DNA of 64,000 nt, from contig NZ_BAEI01000043.1 of NCBI RefSeq assembly GCF_000241325.1, positions 1-64,000 on the forward strand, read 5' to 3'. The translations under genes and the position numbers were made by a program. Under the pieces are notes generated by a model. That model did no database searches and was not told the DNA's origin. It was given only the letters and a program-made list of their open reading frames with translations. Position 1 is the first letter of the stretch; each line of letters opens with the position of its first letter. Origin of the DNA: Gordonia polyisoprenivorans NBRC 16320 = JCM 10675 (GTDB lineage Bacteria > Actinomycetota > Actinomycetes > Mycobacteriales > Mycobacteriaceae). This document shows, piece after piece, positions 44,665 to 53,461 of the stretch.

Positions 44665-46119
44665 TCAGATCACGGCGTCGGCCTCACCGTGCTGATCGGC
44701 GAAGACGGGCTTCTTCCGATGCCACAGTGGTGGCAGTCGATGCAAGAAGATGAATGCCACACCGCCGACTATGAAGCCCACGAAGTAGGAGAGGTCGCCC
44801 AATTCGGGGAAGCTCTTGGCCATCGGCCCGACAAAGAAGGACAGATTCCAGAATGGCATCGAAGCGACCGTACCGATCAGCCATGCGACGAATCCCCACT
44901 CGAGTATGCGACGTGAATCGTAGAGCTCGGCGATCCGACGCCGGTCGTGGCGGTGGCCGAGTACGTAATCCAGCAAAAGCACGGCACCGTAGGGCGCGAT
45001 CAGGTAGGCGCCCATGAAGAGGAACGTCTTGAACTTGGCCTCGAAACCCTCGTCGGCCCACAGACCGACCACATACGCCGCCGCGCAGATGAGGATGACT
45101 GCAGTTCGCCGGCTGACCGGGATACGAAGTGTCTGAACCGAGATCGCTCCTCCGTAGACGTTGAGGAAGTTCTGCGAGAACGACGAGATCAGCACGATCA
45201 ACAGGGCAACCACGTGGAAGGGACCGGTGAGGCGTTCCAGGGCTTCGATCGGGCTCTCGCCGCTGGCGGCAGAACTCCCCAGCAATGCCCCTGCGATGCC
45301 CAACCACGACAGCGATATGAAGTTGCCGGCGAATGTCCAGACACCGGTGGCGCGATTGATCTTGTCGTCATCGGGAAGGTAACGAGAGTAGTCGGAGGCG
45401 AACGGCCACCAGGCGATCAGGAATGACAGGAAGTAACCGGAGAACGTGATCCACCCTCCCCAGCCACCGATCCATCCCGAGGCGTGCGGGTTTGTACCAA
45501 ACCCTCCTTGCCATCCCCGGCTCACCGACACGATGGTGATCATGGCGAAGCCGAAGAACAACACAACGGCGAGGATGCGCTCGAGGTAGTGGATCATGTT
45601 GTAGCCGAACACTGCAACGATGAGCTGCAACACCACCAGGACGAGGGTACCCAGCCAGTACGGTATCGCCGGCACGAGTGCCTTCAATGCTTGGCCGCCG
45701 AGGATGACGGTGACCGCAGCCCAACCGATTCCGGCGAAGATGTTCACATAGGCGACGGGGATGAAGTTTCCGAAGAAACCCAGGGGCCCTCGAGCCTGGA
45801 TCTGTTGTGCCACACCGAGCCGGCCGCCCATCCGGGAGAGCACACCCATCACGATTGCTCCGACCCCGGAGCCGATGACGATCGCGGAGATCGCCGCCGG
45901 CAGCGATAGTCCAAAGCTGACCGCGACGAAGCCGAGCACCATGATCGGGAAGTTCATCCCTGCGGCGAACCAGATGAAGAACTGCGAGACAGGCTTTCCG
46001 TGTCGCTCGGAGTCGGGGATGGCGTCAACCCCGTAGGGCTCGACTTTCGCGATCTTGTTGCGGTAGTGGTAGTCGGGCGTGACTTCACCCGTGGACGCGA
46101 CGGAGACGTCTTGACTCAT
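44665..46119 (-). CDS. NCS1-family nucleobase/heterocycle permease
   Basis: A 484-aa membrane protein with about 12 helices. NCS1 features: N-terminal cytoplasmic DYHYRNKIAKVEPYGVDAIP, helix 1 FFIWFAAGMNFPIMVLGFVA, helix 3 QARGPLGFFGNFIPVAYVNI and helix 6 WWPFASDYSRYLP (conserved DYSRY). Family substrates are purines, pyrimidines, hydantoins, thiamine and similar N-heterocycles. It is last in the seven-gene catabolic arm, giving the best hint to the substrate class. GAAAGGTGACCGCG precedes ATG 46119. Confidence 0.92.
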   Translation of the reverse strand: MSQDVSVASTGEVTPDYHYRNKIAKVEPYGVDAIPDSERHGKPVSQFFIWFAAGMNFPIMVLGFVAVSFGLSLPAAISAIVIGSGVGAIVMGVLSRMGGRLGVAQQIQARGPLGFFGNFIPVAYVNIFAGIGWAAVTVILGGQALKALVPAIPYWLGTLVLVVLQLIVAVFGYNMIHYLERILAVVLFFGFAMITIVSVSRGWQGGFGTNPHASGWIGGWGGWITFSGYFLSFLIAWWPFASDYSRYLPDDDKINRATGVWTFAGNFISLSWLGIAGALLGSSAASGESPIEALERLTGPFHVVALLIVLISSFSQNFLNVYGGAISVQTLRIPVSRRTAVILICAAAYVVGLWADEGFEAKFKTFLFMGAYLIAPYGAVLLLDYVLGHRHDRRRIAELYDSRRILEWGFVAWLIGTVASMPFWNLSFFVGPMAKSFPELGDLSYFVGFIVGGVAFIFLHRLPPLWHRKKPVFADQHGEADAVI

Positions 46120-46153: not shown

Positions 46154-47197
46154 TTACGAGAACTCGGGTACGACGTGTTTGATGAACATCTCGAGCGAGT
46201 CGCGCTTGCGCTCGTGGGAGAGACTGTTGTCGATCCAGAAGCTGAATTCGTCGACGCCGAGAGCTTGATACTCGTTGAGGCGCTTGATGACTTCATCCGG
46301 CGTGCCGATCATTGCCGTGCGGTGCAGCGAGTCCAGCTCGAACTCGGGCCGGGACTCGAACTTCGATTCCGGACTCGGCTCGAGGAAGCCGTCGACCGGT
46401 GTGGTCTTGTTTCCGAACCAGGCGTCGAAAGTGCGGTAGTACTTCGAGACGCCCTCGGCGGCGACGCGCCATCCGTCGGGATCATCGGGCGAATGCACGT
46501 GGGTGTGGCGCAGCACCATGATCTCGGGCCGCGGTACCTCCGGGTGGTTGGCCACGGCAGTATTGAATTTCCGCGTCAGGTCGACGACTTCTTCGTCGCC
46601 TTTCATCAGCGGCGTCACCATGACGTTGCAGCCCTCGCGAACGGCGAAGTCATGAGAATCGGGGTCGCGCGCAGCCACCCACATCGGCGGCGTGGGTTGC
46701 TGGATCGGCTTGGGCACACTGGTCGAGGTGGGGAACTGCCATATCTCGCCGTCGTGGGCATAGTCGCCCTGCCACAGCTTGCGGACCGCAGGCACCAGCT
46801 CACGCAGGTGCTTACCACCGTCGGTGGCGGCCAGACCCGGGGTCATCCGGTCGAACTCGAATTGGTATGCACCACGCGCCAATCCGACCTCAGCGCGGCC
46901 GTTCGAAATGACGTCGAGCAGAGCGGTCTCGCCGGCGGCGCGGATCGGGTTCCAGAACGGTGCGACGATGGTTCCCGCTCCGAGGCGGATGGTGGAGGTC
47001 TGGCCGGCGAGGTAGGCAAGCAGCGGCATCGGGCTGGGCGCGATGACGTACTCCATCGAATGGTGCTCGCCGATCCAGACAGTGCTGAAGCCGCCGGCTT
47101 CGGCCATCTGCGTGAGTTCGGTCAGGTTGCCGAAGAGTTCTCGGTGGCTGACGCTGTCGTCCCAGCGTTCCATGTGTACGAACAGTGAAAATCGCAT
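46154..47197 (-). CDS. LLM-class flavin-dependent monooxygenase
   Basis: A 347-aa bacterial-luciferase-like protein. AGGFSTVWIGEHHSMEYVIA is the conserved entry, followed by IRLGAGTIVAPFWNPIRAA, GRAEVGLARGAYQFEFDRM and a late MIGTPDEVIKRLNEY. Such enzymes use FMNH2 from a separate reductase, here probably the one at 51587, and can open pyrimidine (RutA) or pyridine rings. CAAGGAGACCACC is a strong ribosome site. It lies 34 nt before the NCS1 permease gene and 14 nt after the tautomerase. Confidence 0.92.
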   Translation of the reverse strand: MRFSLFVHMERWDDSVSHRELFGNLTELTQMAEAGGFSTVWIGEHHSMEYVIAPSPMPLLAYLAGQTSTIRLGAGTIVAPFWNPIRAAGETALLDVISNGRAEVGLARGAYQFEFDRMTPGLAATDGGKHLRELVPAVRKLWQGDYAHDGEIWQFPTSTSVPKPIQQPTPPMWVAARDPDSHDFAVREGCNVMVTPLMKGDEEVVDLTRKFNTAVANHPEVPRPEIMVLRHTHVHSPDDPDGWRVAAEGVSKYYRTFDAWFGNKTTPVDGFLEPSPESKFESRPEFELDSLHRTAMIGTPDEVIKRLNEYQALGVDEFSFWIDNSLSHERKRDSLEMFIKHVVPEFS

Positions 47198-47434: not shown

Positions 47435-48937
47435 TCAGCTCCGCATCACGAAGGGATCGGCGACGGGCTCCTCGGCGGTGTTGATCCAGATGCTCTTGAG
47501 CCGCGTGTATTCCTTGATGGTCTCGGTACCGTGCTCGACGCCCACACCGCTGGTCTTGAATCCCTGCCGCGGCGACATCGGCGACATTGCGCGGTAGGTG
47601 TTGACCCAGATGGTGCCGGCTTCGAGACGGCCCGCCATCCGGTGTGCGCGTGAGAGATTCGTCGTCCATACCCCGGCTGCGAGTCCGTAGTCGGTGTCGT
47701 TGGCGAGGCCGACGACCTCGTCCTCGGTGTCGAACGGCATGATCGCGGCGACCGGGCCGAAGATCTCCTCCCGGACCACCCTCATGTCGTTGTGGACGTC
47801 CACCAGCACGGTCGGTTCGTAGTAGTAGCCGCCGAGTCCGCCGTCGCTGGTGCGTCCGCCGGTCAGGACGCGCGCACCCTCGCCGCGACCGAGGTCGACG
47901 TACGAGGCGACCTTGTCACGCTGAGCTTCGAAGGCGAGCGGGCCGAGTTCGGTGGCGTCATCGAGCGGATCGCCGATCTTGATCCGGCGCGCCCGGTCGG
48001 TCACCCGCTCGAGTAACTCGTCGTAGACGCCGCGCTGGGCGAAGATCCGGCTGCCGGCGATGCACGTCTGTCCGGCGGCGGCAAAGATACCGGCCACCAC
48101 GCCCATGGCTGCGTTGGCGACGTTGGCGTCGTCGAAGACGATGTTCGGCGATTTCCCGCCGAGTTCCAGCGTCGATCCGATGAAACGGGAGGCTGTGGCC
48201 GCGGCGATCCGCGAACCGGTGGCGGTACTGCCGGTGAACGAGATCTTGGCCAGTCCGGGGTGGTCGACCAGCGCTTGACCTGCTTCGGCACCGAAGCCGG
48301 TGACGACGTTGACCGCGCCGGGCGGGAAACCGGCCTCCAGGGCCAGTTCGGCCAGGCGCAGAATGGTCGCCGAGGTGTACTCGGACGGTTTGATGACCAC
48401 GGTGTTGCCGACGCACAGTGCGGGCGCCAGCTTGCTGGTCGTGAGGGTCAGTGGCGAATTCCACGGGGTGATCGCACCGACGACGCCGAGCGGTTCGCGG
48501 TTGGTGTAGTTGATCACCGCGCGATCCGATGTGGGGATGACATCGCCTTGGATCTTGTCGGCAAGGCCGGCGTAATAGTAGTAGTACTCCGGTAGCGTCG
48601 CGAGCTGGCCTCGCATCTCGCGCAACAGTTTTCCGTTGTCCTGACTCTCCGAACGGGCCAGATCCTCGGCGTTCTCGGCGATGAGGTCACCGAGCCGACG
48701 CAACAGATGTCCACGGCGGGTCTGACTCAGGTCCCGCCATCGGGGATCGTCGAAGGCGTTACGTGCCGCGATCATCGCCGCGTCGATGTCGGCGGCGTTG
48801 CCACGAGCCACCTCGTAGAGCAGTGCGCCGGTGGCGGGGTTGGTGCTCTGGAAGTAGTCGCCGGATTTCGGGGCAACGTGTTCTCCGCCGATGAAGTGGT
48901 CGCGTCTGGTGCGGTCGGCCACGGTGTGCTCAGACAT
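47435..48937 (-). CDS. Aldehyde dehydrogenase
   Basis: A 500-aa NAD(P)-dependent aldehyde dehydrogenase. GVVGAITPWNSPL is the Asn/Trp region, FTGSTATGSRIA binds the coenzyme, LELGGKSPNIVF holds the general-base Glu, and FAAAGQTCIAGSRI the nucleophilic Cys. EEIFGPVAAIMPF is conserved. It likely oxidises a semialdehyde made by ring cleavage. Its start overlaps the hydrolase stop by 8 nt. Confidence 0.93.
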   Translation of the reverse strand: MSEHTVADRTRRDHFIGGEHVAPKSGDYFQSTNPATGALLYEVARGNAADIDAAMIAARNAFDDPRWRDLSQTRRGHLLRRLGDLIAENAEDLARSESQDNGKLLREMRGQLATLPEYYYYYAGLADKIQGDVIPTSDRAVINYTNREPLGVVGAITPWNSPLTLTTSKLAPALCVGNTVVIKPSEYTSATILRLAELALEAGFPPGAVNVVTGFGAEAGQALVDHPGLAKISFTGSTATGSRIAAATASRFIGSTLELGGKSPNIVFDDANVANAAMGVVAGIFAAAGQTCIAGSRIFAQRGVYDELLERVTDRARRIKIGDPLDDATELGPLAFEAQRDKVASYVDLGRGEGARVLTGGRTSDGGLGGYYYEPTVLVDVHNDMRVVREEIFGPVAAIMPFDTEDEVVGLANDTDYGLAAGVWTTNLSRAHRMAGRLEAGTIWVNTYRAMSPMSPRQGFKTSGVGVEHGTETIKEYTRLKSIWINTAEEPVADPFVMRS

Positions 48938-49661
48938 GGGCGTACTCTCCGATGAAGGTGATCAGGTGATTCGCTAGTTCGGCGGGACACTGCACCGGCA
49001 GCATGTGCCGGCCACCGGCGACGATGGCTTCTCGGCATCCCGGAATCGATTGGGCCAGACGATGGGTCATCTCCGGAGTGGATCCGGGATCGAGCTCACC
49101 GGTGACCGCGAACGACGGGACATCGATATGGTCGAGCTCGGGCCCGATCTCGGCGTCTCCGGTGGCGAAAACCCGATAGCAATTGAGGAAACTGTCGCGA
49201 TCGGTGGCGCGCAGCACCTTCCCGGTCTCCTCGACGGTCTCCGACGGCACCTCGGTGCCGTCGTACCAGCGACGCAGCGACGCCGCTGCACTCGCGCTGA
49301 AGTCCTTCTCGGCGACGTGCAACCGACCCAGGACCGCCTCACGCTCAGCAGGGGTGCGCTTGCACACCGAGCTGACCGACGTGAGCGAAGCGATCGAGTC
49401 GGGCCGGAAACGCGCAATATGCTGTGCCACAAGAGCACCCAGCGAGAATCCGACCAGATGAGACCTCGCCGGGATCTGCGAGGCCACACCATCGGCGAGG
49501 TCGCGCAGCGTGATACCCAGCGGTGCCGGCGGATTGACGCCATGACCGGGCAGATCGGGACTGATCACGGTCATACGGTCGCCGAGGCGGTTGATCAATG
49601 GCGCCCACATCTGGTGATCGAGCCCCACTCCGTGGAGAAGGACTATCGTCGGTCCGGTCAT
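48930..49661 (-). CDS. Alpha/beta hydrolase (enol-lactonase/RutD-like)
   Basis: A 243-aa hydrolase: VLLHGVGLDHQMWAPLINRL, DLPGHGVN, nucleophile elbow LVGFSLGALVAQH, acid in TGELDPGSTP and His in GGRHMLPVQCP. Size and motifs match 3-oxoadipate enol-lactonases and RutD. It probably hydrolyses an amide, carbamate or lactone intermediate. It lies between the AA_synth pair and the aldehyde dehydrogenase, overlapping the latter. Confidence 0.9.
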   Translation of the reverse strand: MTGPTIVLLHGVGLDHQMWAPLINRLGDRMTVISPDLPGHGVNPPAPLGITLRDLADGVASQIPARSHLVGFSLGALVAQHIARFRPDSIASLTSVSSVCKRTPAEREAVLGRLHVAEKDFSASAAASLRRWYDGTEVPSETVEETGKVLRATDRDSFLNCYRVFATGDAEIGPELDHIDVPSFAVTGELDPGSTPEMTHRLAQSIPGCREAIVAGGRHMLPVQCPAELANHLITFIGEYAHV

Positions 49662-49714: not shown

Positions 49715-50269
49715 TCAGCGCTCGGTCGACAGATCGGCGAGGCGTTGCTGCGGCCGCCCCTGTGCGGCGGCAGCGAGTGCGATGACGATCTCGTCGGGGT
49801 GCGGCGCATCTGCGATGCGCACCTCGACAGTCTGATGATGTGACCGGATCGTCGCGTCGGTGATGTGCTTGAGCGGGATATCGAAAATCACCCCGGCCGG
49901 CCCACGCTTCTCGACGGCAGGAAGCAGAGTGGTGGCATCGGCGGCCTTGCGGAAGTGATCACCGAACTTGAGGGTGTGGATCAGACCGGACCCGTGCTCG
50001 ATCTCGCCGTTGAGACCGACGATCGCCGCCTTGCCGTAGGCCTGCGCCGGATCGCCGAGCGCCTCGAGGACCGACGGCGCCAGCAGCGCACCCAGGTCGG
50101 AGGCGTTGGCATCGATGCCGGGCGCCAGATCATCCACGAACCCTTGTCCAGACCAAGGATTTTCGATCACGGCGGCGACGATAGCCACACGCGCGGCGGG
50201 AGTCACGGCACGGCCGCCCTCGGTCCGGATTTCTTCAACGATGGTCACGATCTTGCGGATGTTCAGCAT
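49715..50269 (-). CDS. AA_synth-family protein B
   Basis: A 184-aa member of the 'amino acid synthesis' family (PF06684, old DUF1185). IRKIVTIVEEIRTEGGRAVT, ARVAIVAAVIENPWSGQGFV, GKAAIVGLNGEIEHGSGLIH and a C-terminal IADAPHPDEIVIALA. It is a diverged paralogue of the gene just upstream, whose end it overlaps by 7 nt. The family is named from an auxotrophy complementation and has no firm enzyme activity. Recurrent linkage to LLM oxygenases suggests catabolism of an N-compound. Confidence 0.87.
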   Translation of the reverse strand: MLNIRKIVTIVEEIRTEGGRAVTPAARVAIVAAVIENPWSGQGFVDDLAPGIDANASDLGALLAPSVLEALGDPAQAYGKAAIVGLNGEIEHGSGLIHTLKFGDHFRKAADATTLLPAVEKRGPAGVIFDIPLKHITDATIRSHHQTVEVRIADAPHPDEIVIALAAAAQGRPQQRLADLSTER

Positions 50270-50883
50270 GGGACACCTTCCAGGGTTGTGATGGAGACTG
50301 CAGGGTCGGTCTTACGGTCGCCGATGCGCGGATGCGGCCGGGGACCGGTGGAGCCGGCGGCGACGATGACCAGTTCGTCGGCGCGTGGCGCGTCAGAGAC
50401 GCGGGCGGACACGGTCTGATAGTGACTGCGGGTGGCGGCGGATGTCTTGTGCCAGAGCGGTACGACAAGTGTCTCGCCGGCGTCGGCACGGGTGTCGGCG
50501 AAGCAGATGATCGACTCGCCCTCGAGGAACTCACGCATCAAGTTGCCGAAGTACGGGGTGTGTATGAGGGCGCCGCCGTGCTCGATCTCACCGGCGGACC
50601 CGACGATTGCCGCCTTTCCGAATGCCTCGATGGCCTCCACGCCACCAAGCGCGTCGATCAACTTCTCGGTGACCAGGCGTGCCAGGCCCGGCGCAACAGC
50701 TTCGACCTCGCGGGAGAGATCGCGTGTGGGGCCGGTGCCGACCCACGGGTTGTGTACCACCACGGCGACGCTGGCCTGAGCGATCGGCCGGACGGGCTCG
50801 GCCTGCGCCTCGGTGACGATCTGTTCGCGGTACACCACGACTTTGCGTATTTCAGCGTGAGTACCCGGTTCGTTCTCTTGCAT
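50263..50883 (-). CDS. AA_synth-family protein A
   Basis: A 206-aa paralogue of protein B: IRKVVVYREQIVTEAQAEPV, ASVAVVVHNPWVGTGPTRDL, GKAAIVGSAGEIEHGGALIH and VSDAPRADELVIVAAGST. The motif GKAAIVG...GEIEHG is common to both. ATG 50883 was chosen because a promoter (TTGACC-17-TAGCGT) would start transcription next to it, giving a leaderless mRNA; a GTG at 50913 is an alternative. First gene of the seven-gene minus arm. The pair may form a heteromer. Confidence 0.87.
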   Translation of the reverse strand: MQENEPGTHAEIRKVVVYREQIVTEAQAEPVRPIAQASVAVVVHNPWVGTGPTRDLSREVEAVAPGLARLVTEKLIDALGGVEAIEAFGKAAIVGSAGEIEHGGALIHTPYFGNLMREFLEGESIICFADTRADAGETLVVPLWHKTSAATRSHYQTVSARVSDAPRADELVIVAAGSTGPRPHPRIGDRKTDPAVSITTLEGVPC

Positions 50884-50891
50884 GCCACAGC

Positions 50892-50920
50892 ACGCTATGC
50901 GATGCAGTGACACAGGTCAA
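50892..50920 (-). promoter_or_regulatory. Promoter of the seven-gene minus arm
   Basis: On the minus strand TTGACC (50915-50920), 17-nt spacer, TAGCGT (50892-50897), then 8 nt to ATG 50883. Predicts a leaderless or nearly leaderless operon mRNA. Confidence 0.5.
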
Positions 50921-51084: not shown

Positions 51085-51132
51085 CTGTTGTATGCAACAG
51101 GGTCTCAGGTATGAGATCGGCTTGTATACCAG
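51085..51132. promoter_or_regulatory. GntR-type operator sites in the divergent gap
   Basis: CTGTTGTATGCAACAG (51085-51100) has perfect 6-bp arms. CTTGTATACCAG (51121-51132) shares the TTGTAT core. TTGTAT-A/G-C-type palindromes are typical of FCD-class GntR proteins, one of which is encoded at 52161. The remaining part of 50914-51155 shows no gene. Confidence 0.5.
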
Positions 51133-51155: not shown

Positions 51156-51584
51156 ATGTCCACATCTGCACTTCGGGCCGGTCGAATCCGCGAAGTTTGG
51201 GATGCAGCATGGGATCGCGGCGACGTCGATGCCTTCGACGATCTACTGGGACCCGACTACCGCAGGATCGGCAGTTCTGGTGACGCCCAGGGCCGCGCAG
51301 CATTCAAGGACTCGATCGTGGCCACGCGAGCGGCATTTCCGTCGTTGGTGACCACGATCGACGACATCGTCGAAGATGGCGACCGGGTTGCGATCCGGTG
51401 GCACAGCACCGGGGTACACCAGAACTCCTTCCTCGGCGTTCCGGCGACCCGGCGCGAGGTGACGGTCAGCGGCGCCACCTTCGCCCGATTCGCCGACGAC
51501 GTCATCGTCGAGGAACACGTGACCTGGGATCCGCGGGCCCTTCTCGCGGCGCTCGGCATCATCAGCATCGGACAGGACCAGTGA
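51156..51584 (+). CDS. SnoaL-like/ester cyclase-fold protein
   Basis: A 142-aa NTF2-like protein: RIREVWDAAWDRGDVDAFDD, LLGPDYRRIG, GRAAFKDSIVATRAAFPSLV and VAIRWHSTGVHQNSFLGVPA, the usual SnoaL/ester-cyclase pattern. ATG 51156 has AGAGAGGACGAGAAG upstream. First gene of the plus arm, 2 nt before the flavin reductase. It may cyclise, hydrate or bind an unstable intermediate; activity unknown. Confidence 0.85.
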   Translation: MSTSALRAGRIREVWDAAWDRGDVDAFDDLLGPDYRRIGSSGDAQGRAAFKDSIVATRAAFPSLVTTIDDIVEDGDRVAIRWHSTGVHQNSFLGVPATRREVTVSGATFARFADDVIVEEHVTWDPRALLAALGIISIGQDQ

Positions 51585-52102: not shown

Positions 52103-52160
52103 CGCCGATGTGCGAGGCGGATGCCGTGACGACGGAGTCGTTGGGATGAAGGAGAATGCG

Positions 52161-52847
52161 ATGGTCATCAATGGGACAGGCAACGGATCGATCCAGGCAC
52201 GTCTGGTCACCGAGATCCGTCGTCGTATCATCGCCGGCGAGATCCTACCCGAGGTCAACATCTCCGAATTGGCTCTCGCCGAAGAGTTCGGTGTCAGCCG
52301 AACACCGGTCCGCGAGGCATTCAAACAACTGCAGACCGAGGGGCTCATCGAGATACGGCCTCGCGTAGGTACTTTCGTCACCACGCCCTCGCGCCGCGAG
52401 ATCACCGAACTCTTCGAGATGAAGGAACTACTCGAGGGCGCAGCGGCGCGCTTACTCGCCCAACGCGGACGCGTCCCTGAACTCGACCTCCTCGAAGAGA
52501 ACCTCCGCCAAGCCGATGAGGCAGTGGCCCGCGACGACCGCGACCGCTACGCCGAACTCGTCGAGGAGTTCCACAACCTGCTCATCGTCGGTGCCGACAA
52601 CAAGAAACTCGAAGCGCACTACCGGACTCTGATGAACCAACTCGCCTATGCCCGCCTGGTCCATACCTCACTCGGTCAGCCCGGTCGCGCACTGCAATCC
52701 GACCGAGAGCACCACCACGTCGTCGATCTGATCACCGCCAAGGATGGCGACAGCGCCGAACGCGTGATGCGCGAACATGTGCGCGCCAGCCGGCAGGCGT
52801 TACTCATCGGACTCGACTCCACCCCCAAGGGAGGGCCAACCTCATGA
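52161..52847 (+). CDS. GntR-family (FCD) regulator of the divergon
   Basis: A 228-aa GntR protein: winged helix IRRRIIAGEILPEVNISELA, EEFGVSRTPVREAFKQLQTE and GLIEIRPRVGTFV; FCD effector domain with YAELVEEFHNLLIVGADNKK and DREHHHVVDLI (metal-binding His set). ATG 52161 has AAGGAG six nt upstream; an ATG at 52146 lacks a good site. It overlaps the RibB-like gene by ATGA, so the two are made together. Confidence 0.9.
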   Translation: MVINGTGNGSIQARLVTEIRRRIIAGEILPEVNISELALAEEFGVSRTPVREAFKQLQTEGLIEIRPRVGTFVTTPSRREITELFEMKELLEGAAARLLAQRGRVPELDLLEENLRQADEAVARDDRDRYAELVEEFHNLLIVGADNKKLEAHYRTLMNQLAYARLVHTSLGQPGRALQSDREHHHVVDLITAKDGDSAERVMREHVRASRQALLIGLDSTPKGGPTS

Positions 52848-53461
52848 CTGCCACCCTCGACCGTCCAGCTCACACAGCAGACGAGCCCACGCCATCGCCG
52901 AAGGCGCAGAACGCCCGCCGGTGTTCTTCCGAGACAATCCTTCTCGATGAATCAGGCGCCCTACTGGTGTTCGCCGCAGATGTCGCCACGACAGCACAAC
53001 TGGCTTTCGCCATCAGGCATTCGTCCGGACTGGTACACGCCGCCATGCCCTCGTTTCTCCTCGACAAGCTCCGCATTCCCGATCAGCCCGTGTTTGCTTC
53101 CGAGGACTCGCGGCTGTCGTTCACCGTCGCAGTTGATGCTGCTAACGGAATCGGCACCGGCATCTCCGCGCACGATCGGGCGCGCACCCTGCGCGTACTG
53201 GCGGACGGTTCGAGTGTTCCGGACGACCTGGTCCGGCCCGGTCACGTAATGCCGGTCCGGTGTGATGACGGCGGCTACCGGAGTCGTCGGCGCTGCTGGG
53301 AACTCGCCGTCGAGCAGGTAACCGCACAAGGCCATGCACCTGTGGCCGTGGCCGTGCGGCTGGTCGACGAATCCGGCGACATCCTCGACCCGGCAGCGGC
53401 CTTCTCGTTCGGAGTGACTCACGGAATCTCGGTCTCCGATGTGCGCGAGTCCTCCTACTAG
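52844..53461 (+). CDS. RibB-fold protein lacking the DHBP-synthase active site
   Basis: A 205-aa homologue of 3,4-dihydroxy-2-butanone 4-phosphate synthase. Core matches: LAFAIRHSSGLVHAAMP, FTVAVDAANGIGTGISAHDR and DDLVRPGHVMPVRCDDGG. Compared from memory with E. coli RibB, the metal/substrate loop DRENEGD is absent (LLDESGALLVFAAD), the conserved GGHTEA is RRCWEL (His lost), and the late catalytic Glu region reads VAVRLVDESG. A normal synthase activity is therefore unlikely. Coupled to GntR by ATGA; perhaps a ligand-binding or accessory protein for the flavin system. Confidence 0.8.
   Translation: MTATLDRPAHTADEPTPSPKAQNARRCSSETILLDESGALLVFAADVATTAQLAFAIRHSSGLVHAAMPSFLLDKLRIPDQPVFASEDSRLSFTVAVDAANGIGTGISAHDRARTLRVLADGSSVPDDLVRPGHVMPVRCDDGGYRSRRRCWELAVEQVTAQGHAPVAVAVRLVDESGDILDPAAAFSFGVTHGISVSDVRESSY

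Follow-up and report, generated by a model that had tools for sequence, protein, structure and literature searches.

What would a protein with the fold of a riboflavin-pathway enzyme, lacking that enzyme's catalytic residues, do beside a transcriptional regulator in a catabolic gene cluster? The question is raised by a 64,000-nucleotide stretch of the 6.28-Mb genome of Gordonia polyisoprenivorans NBRC 16320 = JCM 10675 (contig NZ_BAEI01000043.1, positions 1 to 64,000 of the forward strand; hereafter the window), in which a GntR-type regulator gene is followed by a gene for a 205-residue relative of RibB, the 3,4-dihydroxy-2-butanone 4-phosphate (DHBP) synthase. Our answer, which we favor tentatively, is that this protein may be a noncatalytic partner that dimerizes with the housekeeping RibBA of the same cell and thereby tunes flavin supply for flavin-using catabolism.

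The RibB-like protein and its family

The gene lies at 52844..53461 on the + strand, with its start ATG at 52844 and its stop codon at 53459-53461. Its product matches the Pfam DHBP_synthase model (E 2.2e-36; 125.6 bits, cut-off 26.4) and scores under the cut-off of all seven listed NCBIfam riboflavin models, the fairest of which, TIGR00506 ribB, gave 96 bits against a cut-off of 177; the other six describe longer, bifunctional proteins. When an AlphaFold2 model of the protein (predicted local distance difference test score 83.7) was compared by Foldseek, 47 structures matched with E no higher than 0.001, every one of them a DHBP synthase. The RibB fold claimed by the original prediction, which had been made from the DNA alone, is therefore confirmed by Pfam and by the modeled structure.

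We aligned the protein to Escherichia coli RibB and to the intact RibBA of its own genome; E. coli numbering is used below unless a number is given as the protein's own. In this alignment R37 falls in a gap, E40 is replaced by Gly, D42 by Leu, H153 by Cys, T154 by Trp, E174 by Arg and C67 by His. Loop 1, which carries DRENEGD in RibB, is about 4 residues shorter; its remnant (own residues 33-42; 52940..52969, +) has no counterpart of R37, E40 or D42, and Glu36 is the single acid that aligns with E38, a Glu found in 22% of 45 aligned members. The former RxGHTE metal/phosphate site now reads RRRCWELA (own residues 148-155; 53285..53308, +), where E155, the Glu of GHTE, is retained, and the former Glu174 is Arg172 (53357..53359, +). 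Counted over the residues that a RibB monomer supplies to its own site, here called cis (R37, E38, E40, D42, H153, T154 and E174), the protein keeps 1 of 7, the ambiguous Glu, and 13 relatives scored alongside it keep 0 or 1. GISAHDR and RPGHVMPVR are both retained. The loss of DRENEGD, of the His and Thr of GHT and of the late Glu, with these two motifs kept, was thus correctly predicted, and since no catalytic acid or His was found at a shifted position in either comparison, the claim of loss survives. As far as alignment can tell, the protein is a RibB-fold pseudoenzyme without catalytic residues, in a genome that also encodes an intact RibBA with both catalytic motifs (G000:C58); here and throughout, live or dead status is judged from sequence only.

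The protein belongs to a family of its own kind. Among the 120 database relatives listed, of 779 found, a pattern search showed that 90 lack both catalytic motifs (P0001 to P0090 except P0087, plus P0118, which is of another lineage; 4 are fragments). An alignment of 45 members, the window's included (A1), contains 24 invariant columns, and in it Cys67 is replaced by His in 91% of proteins, Thr154 by Trp in 93%, Glu174 by Arg in 84% and Ala142 by Cys in 100%. Scored singly at positions 67, 142, 154 and 174, 12 of 14 members read His-Cys-Trp-Arg, one His-Cys-Tyr-Arg and one His-Cys-Trp-His; the member at L014, which is outside these 14 and whose match is confined to residues 26-141, has Pro at 154 and Thr at 174. 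Because the lost residues are replaced alike across the 45 aligned members, the alignment describes a family remodeled under constraint and not one in decay. A pseudogene is ruled out by the intact open reading frame, the 24 invariant columns and the conserved replacements. The family is sporadic. Members occur in 8 of the 401 genomes from its taxonomic family and in 2 of 397 genomes of an order sample (the window's included in both counts, the second being read from a drop in score from 6e-84 to 1.8e-55), and in 5 of 80 genomes of a second genus. In the window's genus, at least 23 of the 59 genomes carry a dead RibB copy of one lineage or another, a count to which unread matches could add.

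Own loops, loaned loops and the RibB dimer

The RibB active site is shared between two monomers. In the Vibrio cholerae enzyme, one monomer contributes loop 1 (34-41), loop 2 (82-98) and loop 3 (175-185) to the lining of the site, and its partner contributes loops 4' (103-111) and 5' (132-138) (PMC5228156); E. coli numbers were taken as one lower than these. According to the same source, Thr108' of loop 4 stabilizes the partner's Glu39 and, with Asp114', lets the metal in; in Methanocaldococcus jannaschii, activity reportedly falls or disappears when these residues are changed to Ser. We scored eight such loaned residues (T107, G108, S110, D113, R114, R133, G135 and H136), and the window's protein retains all eight. 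They lie in two kept segments assigned to loops after PMC5228156: the loop-4 segment with the residues directly after it (own residues 100-115, ANGIGTGISAHDRART; 53141..53188, +), where T105, G106, S108, D111, R112 and T115 are invariant in A1, and the loop-5 segment (own residues 129-137, LVRPGHVMP; 53228..53254, +), where R131, P132, G133, H134 and P137 are.

The same contrast runs through dead RibB proteins far from this family. With dead defined as at most 2 of the 7 cis residues, an alignment of 281 homologues held 143 dead rows (the window's protein, near-copies and some fragments among them), of which 140 keep all eight loaned residues and 3 keep seven. Some of these rows come from lineages that share only about 37-44% identity with the window's protein: L028, L037, L040, L045, L063 and plasmid genes of three Rhodococcus strains, R. 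ruber MSA14, R. jostii RHA1 (pRHL3) and R. qingshengii CS98. In a nonredundant set of 33 dead sequences under 50% identity (mean 36%), 6 invariants of loops 4 and 5 are retained in 97-100% of proteins. With the 7 defining positions left out, 6 further cis-loop invariants are retained in 6-55%; for 22 invariants that belong to none of the loops mean retention is 62%, compared with 98% in loops 4-5 (Mann-Whitney p 0.002 for loops 4-5 against each group, indicative given the few positions). An earlier value, p 6e-4, included the positions that define dead and is replaced by this one; the pattern is unchanged. The split is clean for 22 invariant polar residues: T107, S110, D113, R114, T117 and H136 persist in 94-100% of the set and the 16 others in 0-55%, with none between; 9 of these 16 play no part in the definition, and D113, R114 and T117 sit just after loop 4. 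Different dead lineages carry differing letters in the cis pocket and identical loaned loops. A survey of the genus added 39 RibB-like loci, hand-picked from the matches with weaker and shorter ones first and not covering all of them; 16 retain at least 6 of the 7 cis residues and 23 are dead, 21 of the latter with all eight loaned residues, one with seven and one with three.

Since the loaned loops are kept and the own loops lost across lineages with different cis letters, the simplest account is pairing with a live RibB. It also speaks for pairing that the Glu served by Thr108' and Asp114' is missing from most dead proteins themselves. We propose that the 205-residue protein would form a heterodimer with the working RibBA. 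In such a mixed dimer RibBA would give loops 1-3 and the pseudoenzyme loops 4-5, so that one site would be complete and the other dead. The pseudoenzyme would presumably be made together with the flavin reductase and the flavin-dependent monooxygenase of its cluster, and the pairing could alter how active RibBA is, how it is regulated or where it is located, for example by activation, release from inhibition or relocation. Flavin supply would in this way be matched to the demand of a flavin-hungry catabolic pathway. It is conceivable, and we advance it with reserve, that the Actinobacteria hold a widespread class of such half-site donors, which would complete the RibBA site in trans and be switched on with flavin-dependent catabolic clusters.

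Several points weigh against this proposal. The loaned loops are also at the dimer contact, and their retention may be explained by folding or homodimerization. Thr108 and Asp114 make no direct contact with ribulose 5-phosphate according to PMC5228156. That the 7 defining cis positions are poorly retained follows by construction, and the dead relatives were found by homology, which favors sequences with a conserved middle part. Loss of both halves is detectable, if rare in the genus survey, where the sole exception, L143 (4998-5592, G041), keeps 0 of 7 cis and 3 of 8 loaned residues. The same survey placed a flavin reductase gene within 1.3 kb of 15 of 16 intact accessory RibB(A) copies versus 6 of 23 dead ones. 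Finally, the cis pocket has been rebuilt with conserved His, Cys, Trp and Arg, which pure donation does not require.

This last point is the core of the main rival, a homodimer in which a rebuilt pocket, with His65, Cys140, Trp152 and Arg172 in cis and T105, S108, D111 and H134 in trans (own numbering), binds or converts another small molecule such as a pathway intermediate. It is a serious possibility that we nevertheless consider rather doubtful. The replacements are specific and conserved, Cys140 being invariant, His65 and Trp152 present in at least 90% of the 45 members and the quartet intact in 12 of the 14 scored singly, and the retained polar residues would line that same pocket. Other dead lineages, however, share the trans residues despite unrelated cis letters, so that the constraint in trans is independent of what the cis pocket contains; and the catabolic neighbors of the family vary, which makes a single pathway ligand unlikely.

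The dimer contact can also be taken further: accessory copies may have lost activity, perhaps repeatedly, and GTGIS..DR and RPGH may persist for the fold or the homodimer only, with no specific function of the loaned loops. The intact accessory copies in like places beside flavin reductases would be the source of such genes. On a tree of 82 rows a switch between live and dead is required 5 times, and well-supported (starred) branches force 2 of these switches; resolution is weak, with 35 of the 79 inner branches shown as open and 6 as starred, and a firm count of independent losses was abandoned for that reason. Two-domain proteins in which a dead RibB domain is fused to a GTP cyclohydrolase II domain (PF00925) keep the loaned loops too: P0147 from Mycobacterium florentinum, P0152, P0158 and P0162. 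We regard this explanation as unlikely, however, because the kept residues include polar active-site ones whose mutation reportedly costs activity (PMC5228156), because invariants elsewhere in the protein are retained less often than those of loops 4-5, and because the replaced sites are themselves conserved, so that the protein is not drifting.

The gene cluster, its regulator and accessory RibB genes

The pair sits in a divergent flavin-dependent cluster, as originally predicted; this location is borne out by gene content, and the cluster is syntenic in six relatives (L001, L098, L108, L109, L111 and L112). On the + strand, a SnoaL-like protein (51156..51584; Pfam 6.6e-29) and a flavin reductase of the two-component monooxygenase type (PF01613; 51587..52102; Pfam 4.7e-37), both syntenic, precede the regulator and the RibB-like gene. 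The - strand carries two overlapping PF06684 ("amino acid synthesis", DUF1185) genes, protein 1 at 50263..50913 (Pfam 6.9e-54; both of its Protein Data Bank (PDB) sequence matches, 2qtp and 3byq, are uncharacterized) and protein 2 at 49715..50269 (Pfam 1.8e-59), followed by a syntenic alpha/beta hydrolase (48930..49661; NCBIfam matches to PcaD, BioH and RutD below their cut-offs), an aldehyde dehydrogenase (47435..48937; NCBIfam, under the cut-offs of named subfamilies; 84-89% identical in the syntenic loci), a luciferase-like (LLM) flavin-dependent monooxygenase (46154..47194; NCBIfam below cut-off, with luciferase-like PDB matches) and an NCS1-family nucleobase-type transporter (44665..46119; TIGR00800 below cut-off). 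The transporter has an approximately 80% identical counterpart in 5 of the 6 relatives and was not seen in L001, where 20.5 kb was available. Across the six, identities are 80-90% for the LLM protein, 78-89% for the regulator and 53-68% for the RibB-like protein. In the syntenic cluster the two PF06684 genes (49715-50913) form a conserved pair. A TetR gene (53582) and an AidB-like acyl-CoA dehydrogenase gene (54223) downstream were rejected as members, having no match in the 14 loci compared at E 1e-6. The literature searched yielded no matching cluster that would name the pathway's substrate, and the PDB matches of the monooxygenase and the PF06684 protein give no usable one.

The regulator gene (52161..52847, +; Pfam GntR 4.1e-19 and FCD 1.9e-24) runs from an ATG at 52161 to a TGA at 52845-52847, with alternative in-frame starts at 52110 and 52146 and an AGGAG at 52150-52154. 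The RibB-like ATG at 52844 overlaps this TGA as ATGA, just as predicted, although the "equal dose" of the two proteins that had been read from the overlap does not follow from it. The pairing itself holds in part. An orthologous GntR gene adjoins the RibB-like gene, in the same direction, at 7 of 15 family loci (the window and the six syntenic relatives), which span two families of Actinobacteria, and among these 7 the ATGA overlap occurs in 2, the remaining five having gaps of 10-19 bp; the pair is thus real at the window and not family-wide. No GntR orthologue is adjacent at the 8 other family loci (L003, L014, L096, L097, L099, L100, L101 and L110); at L003 an unlike GntR/FCD gene (30% identical) is found two genes off, and at L101 one (28%) about 8 kb off. 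The neighbors there are also of other kinds: a glutamine synthetase-type gene and a dehydrogenase at L003; aldehyde dehydrogenase, amidohydrolase, EthD and luciferase-like genes at L096; cupin, amidohydrolase, flavin reductase, FAA hydrolase and dihydrodipicolinate synthase (DHDPS)-type genes at L097; AMP-binding, flavin reductase, DHDPS-type and ornithine cyclodeaminase-type genes at L100; and an acyl-CoA dehydrogenase-like protein and a LysR regulator at L110. In other lineages, the dead RibB genes at L123 and L119 lack a neighboring GntR gene (an FCD protein is about 6 kb off in L119), and at L116 one lies 2.2 kb off. From the pairing in 7 of 15 loci and the ATGA in 2 of 7, the regulator is therefore best read as that of one cluster with which it shares an operon, and the pairing as a local arrangement, not a trait of the RibB-like family.

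It follows that the idea of the original prediction, a RibB-like protein acting on the neighboring regulator in response to a flavin or metabolite that it senses, is improbable in spite of the co-directional neighbors at those 7 loci, given the 8 family loci and the other lineages without such a neighbor, and nothing found points to a sensor or to a chaperone for flavin mononucleotide, the residue pattern pointing instead to a RibB dimer partner, which that prediction did not propose. FCD-type GntR proteins, moreover, normally bind an effector themselves. The divergent promoter region contains a 16-bp inverted repeat, CTGTTGTATGCAACAG, at 51085-51100, with another TTGTAT 34 bp downstream. A simple scan for palindromes and for TTGTAT/ATACAA found no similar repeat in the AAs1-side gaps of the six syntenic relatives or in the SnoaL-side gaps of L098 and L108, which were the only two of that side scanned; one ATACAA was seen in L108. 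A conserved GntR operator at this site was accordingly dropped.

Of 24 dead RibB loci, 13 have a flavin reductase gene within 1.3 kb, always on the same strand, and 17 have one within 5 kb; 7 of the 24 represent one syntenic cluster. There are 10 flavin reductase genes of this kind in the window's genome. Canonical loci had a flavin reductase near in 4 of 50 cases, a comparison that misleads when taken alone, since these controls are mostly housekeeping loci with 1.5-kb flanks and the queries included reductases from four of the plasmid loci. The neighborhood was dropped as a mark of dead copies because intact accessory copies show it more often, so that the association is a feature of accessory RibB genes as a whole. 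The intact accessory loci are L146, L150-L154 and L156-L165 in the genus survey, together with L122 (8001-9841) and L124 (7170-9146). Accessory copies seem to have been recruited to flavin-dependent clusters, some later losing their chemistry, and the intact ones beside flavin reductases are apparently a general device for raising flavin supply in catabolic clusters.

Two further dead genes were noted. The window's genome carries a second dead RibB paralogue (G000:C85, match 1501-2085 in L028; L114), about 40% identical to the window's protein over 167 residues, which retains none of the 7 cis residues and all 8 loaned ones. In R. jostii RHA1, pRHL3 carries a gene annotated as DHBP synthase (WP_011600579.1; L123, 7920-8561) with 0 of 7 catalytic cis residues, and this gene closes a cluster of an acyl-CoA dehydrogenase-like protein, a flavin reductase, a dioxygenase and a maleylacetate reductase.

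Comparison with known systems

The fold is known and so are pseudoenzymes as a kind; a class that keeps only the loaned half of its site was not met in the open-licence literature searched. That literature also yielded no description of noncatalytic RibB proteins in Actinobacteria, which is weak evidence of absence, and "butanone" and "ribB" had no match in PMC12442393, PMC13101512 or PMC6710988. Public records label several of the dead genes DHBP synthase, and these would be counted as riboflavin enzymes. From DHBP synthase proper (PDB 1tks, 3mio and 1g57) the 205-residue protein differs in the loss of loop 1, R37, E40, D42, H153, T154 and E174 and in scoring under the NCBIfam ribB cut-off.

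The intact accessory RibB(A) proteins, such as those of Rhodococcus sp. DMU1 (L122) and Pseudonocardia (L124), occupy a like genomic place beside a flavin reductase or flavin-dependent oxygenase; unlike the dead copies, those in the genus survey have lost no more than one of the 7 catalytic residues scored, and L122 and L124 are intact by alignment. The closest described neighborhood is the ipp cluster of Rhodococcus sp. D-6 (PMC12442392), where orf2560, a 214-residue RibB-like reading frame, lies between ippA1 and ippA2, the oxygenase and reductase genes of a characterized two-component monooxygenase, and is induced as strongly as the oxygenase gene (log2 4.46). The text of that paper names orf2560 once, in Table 1, and the likeness to our protein is one of description, not of residues. 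Since purified IppA1 and IppA2 together hydroxylate the substrate, the D-6 protein, if comparable, would be dispensable for the monooxygenase reaction itself.

Other riboflavin-pathway paralogues have been described as having lost a function, namely plant RIBA3 (PMC3509567) and mycobacterial Rv1940/RibA1 (PMC12855090, PMC10491194); in the accessible parts of these sources they are described as bipartite or GTP cyclohydrolase II proteins, and catabolic clusters are not mentioned. For the proposed action on a partner, the nearest likeness is with trypanosomatids. Their S-adenosylmethionine decarboxylase (AdoMetDC) prozyme is a dead paralogue that activates its live partner by heterodimerizing (PMC5201418), and a dead paralogue of deoxyhypusine synthase (PMC3663545) likewise belongs to a multi-subunit enzyme. 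In the window's genome, too, a dead paralogue occurs together with a live enzyme, RibBA, both as judged from sequence. Partner activation is reported for the trypanosomatid proteins, whereas for the 205-residue protein the partner is a proposed one; by analogy, prozyme-type paralogues suggest that strong effects on a live partner are possible. If the pairing with RibBA is true, it would constitute a bacterial prozyme system, one that links the induction of catabolic genes directly to cofactor supply.

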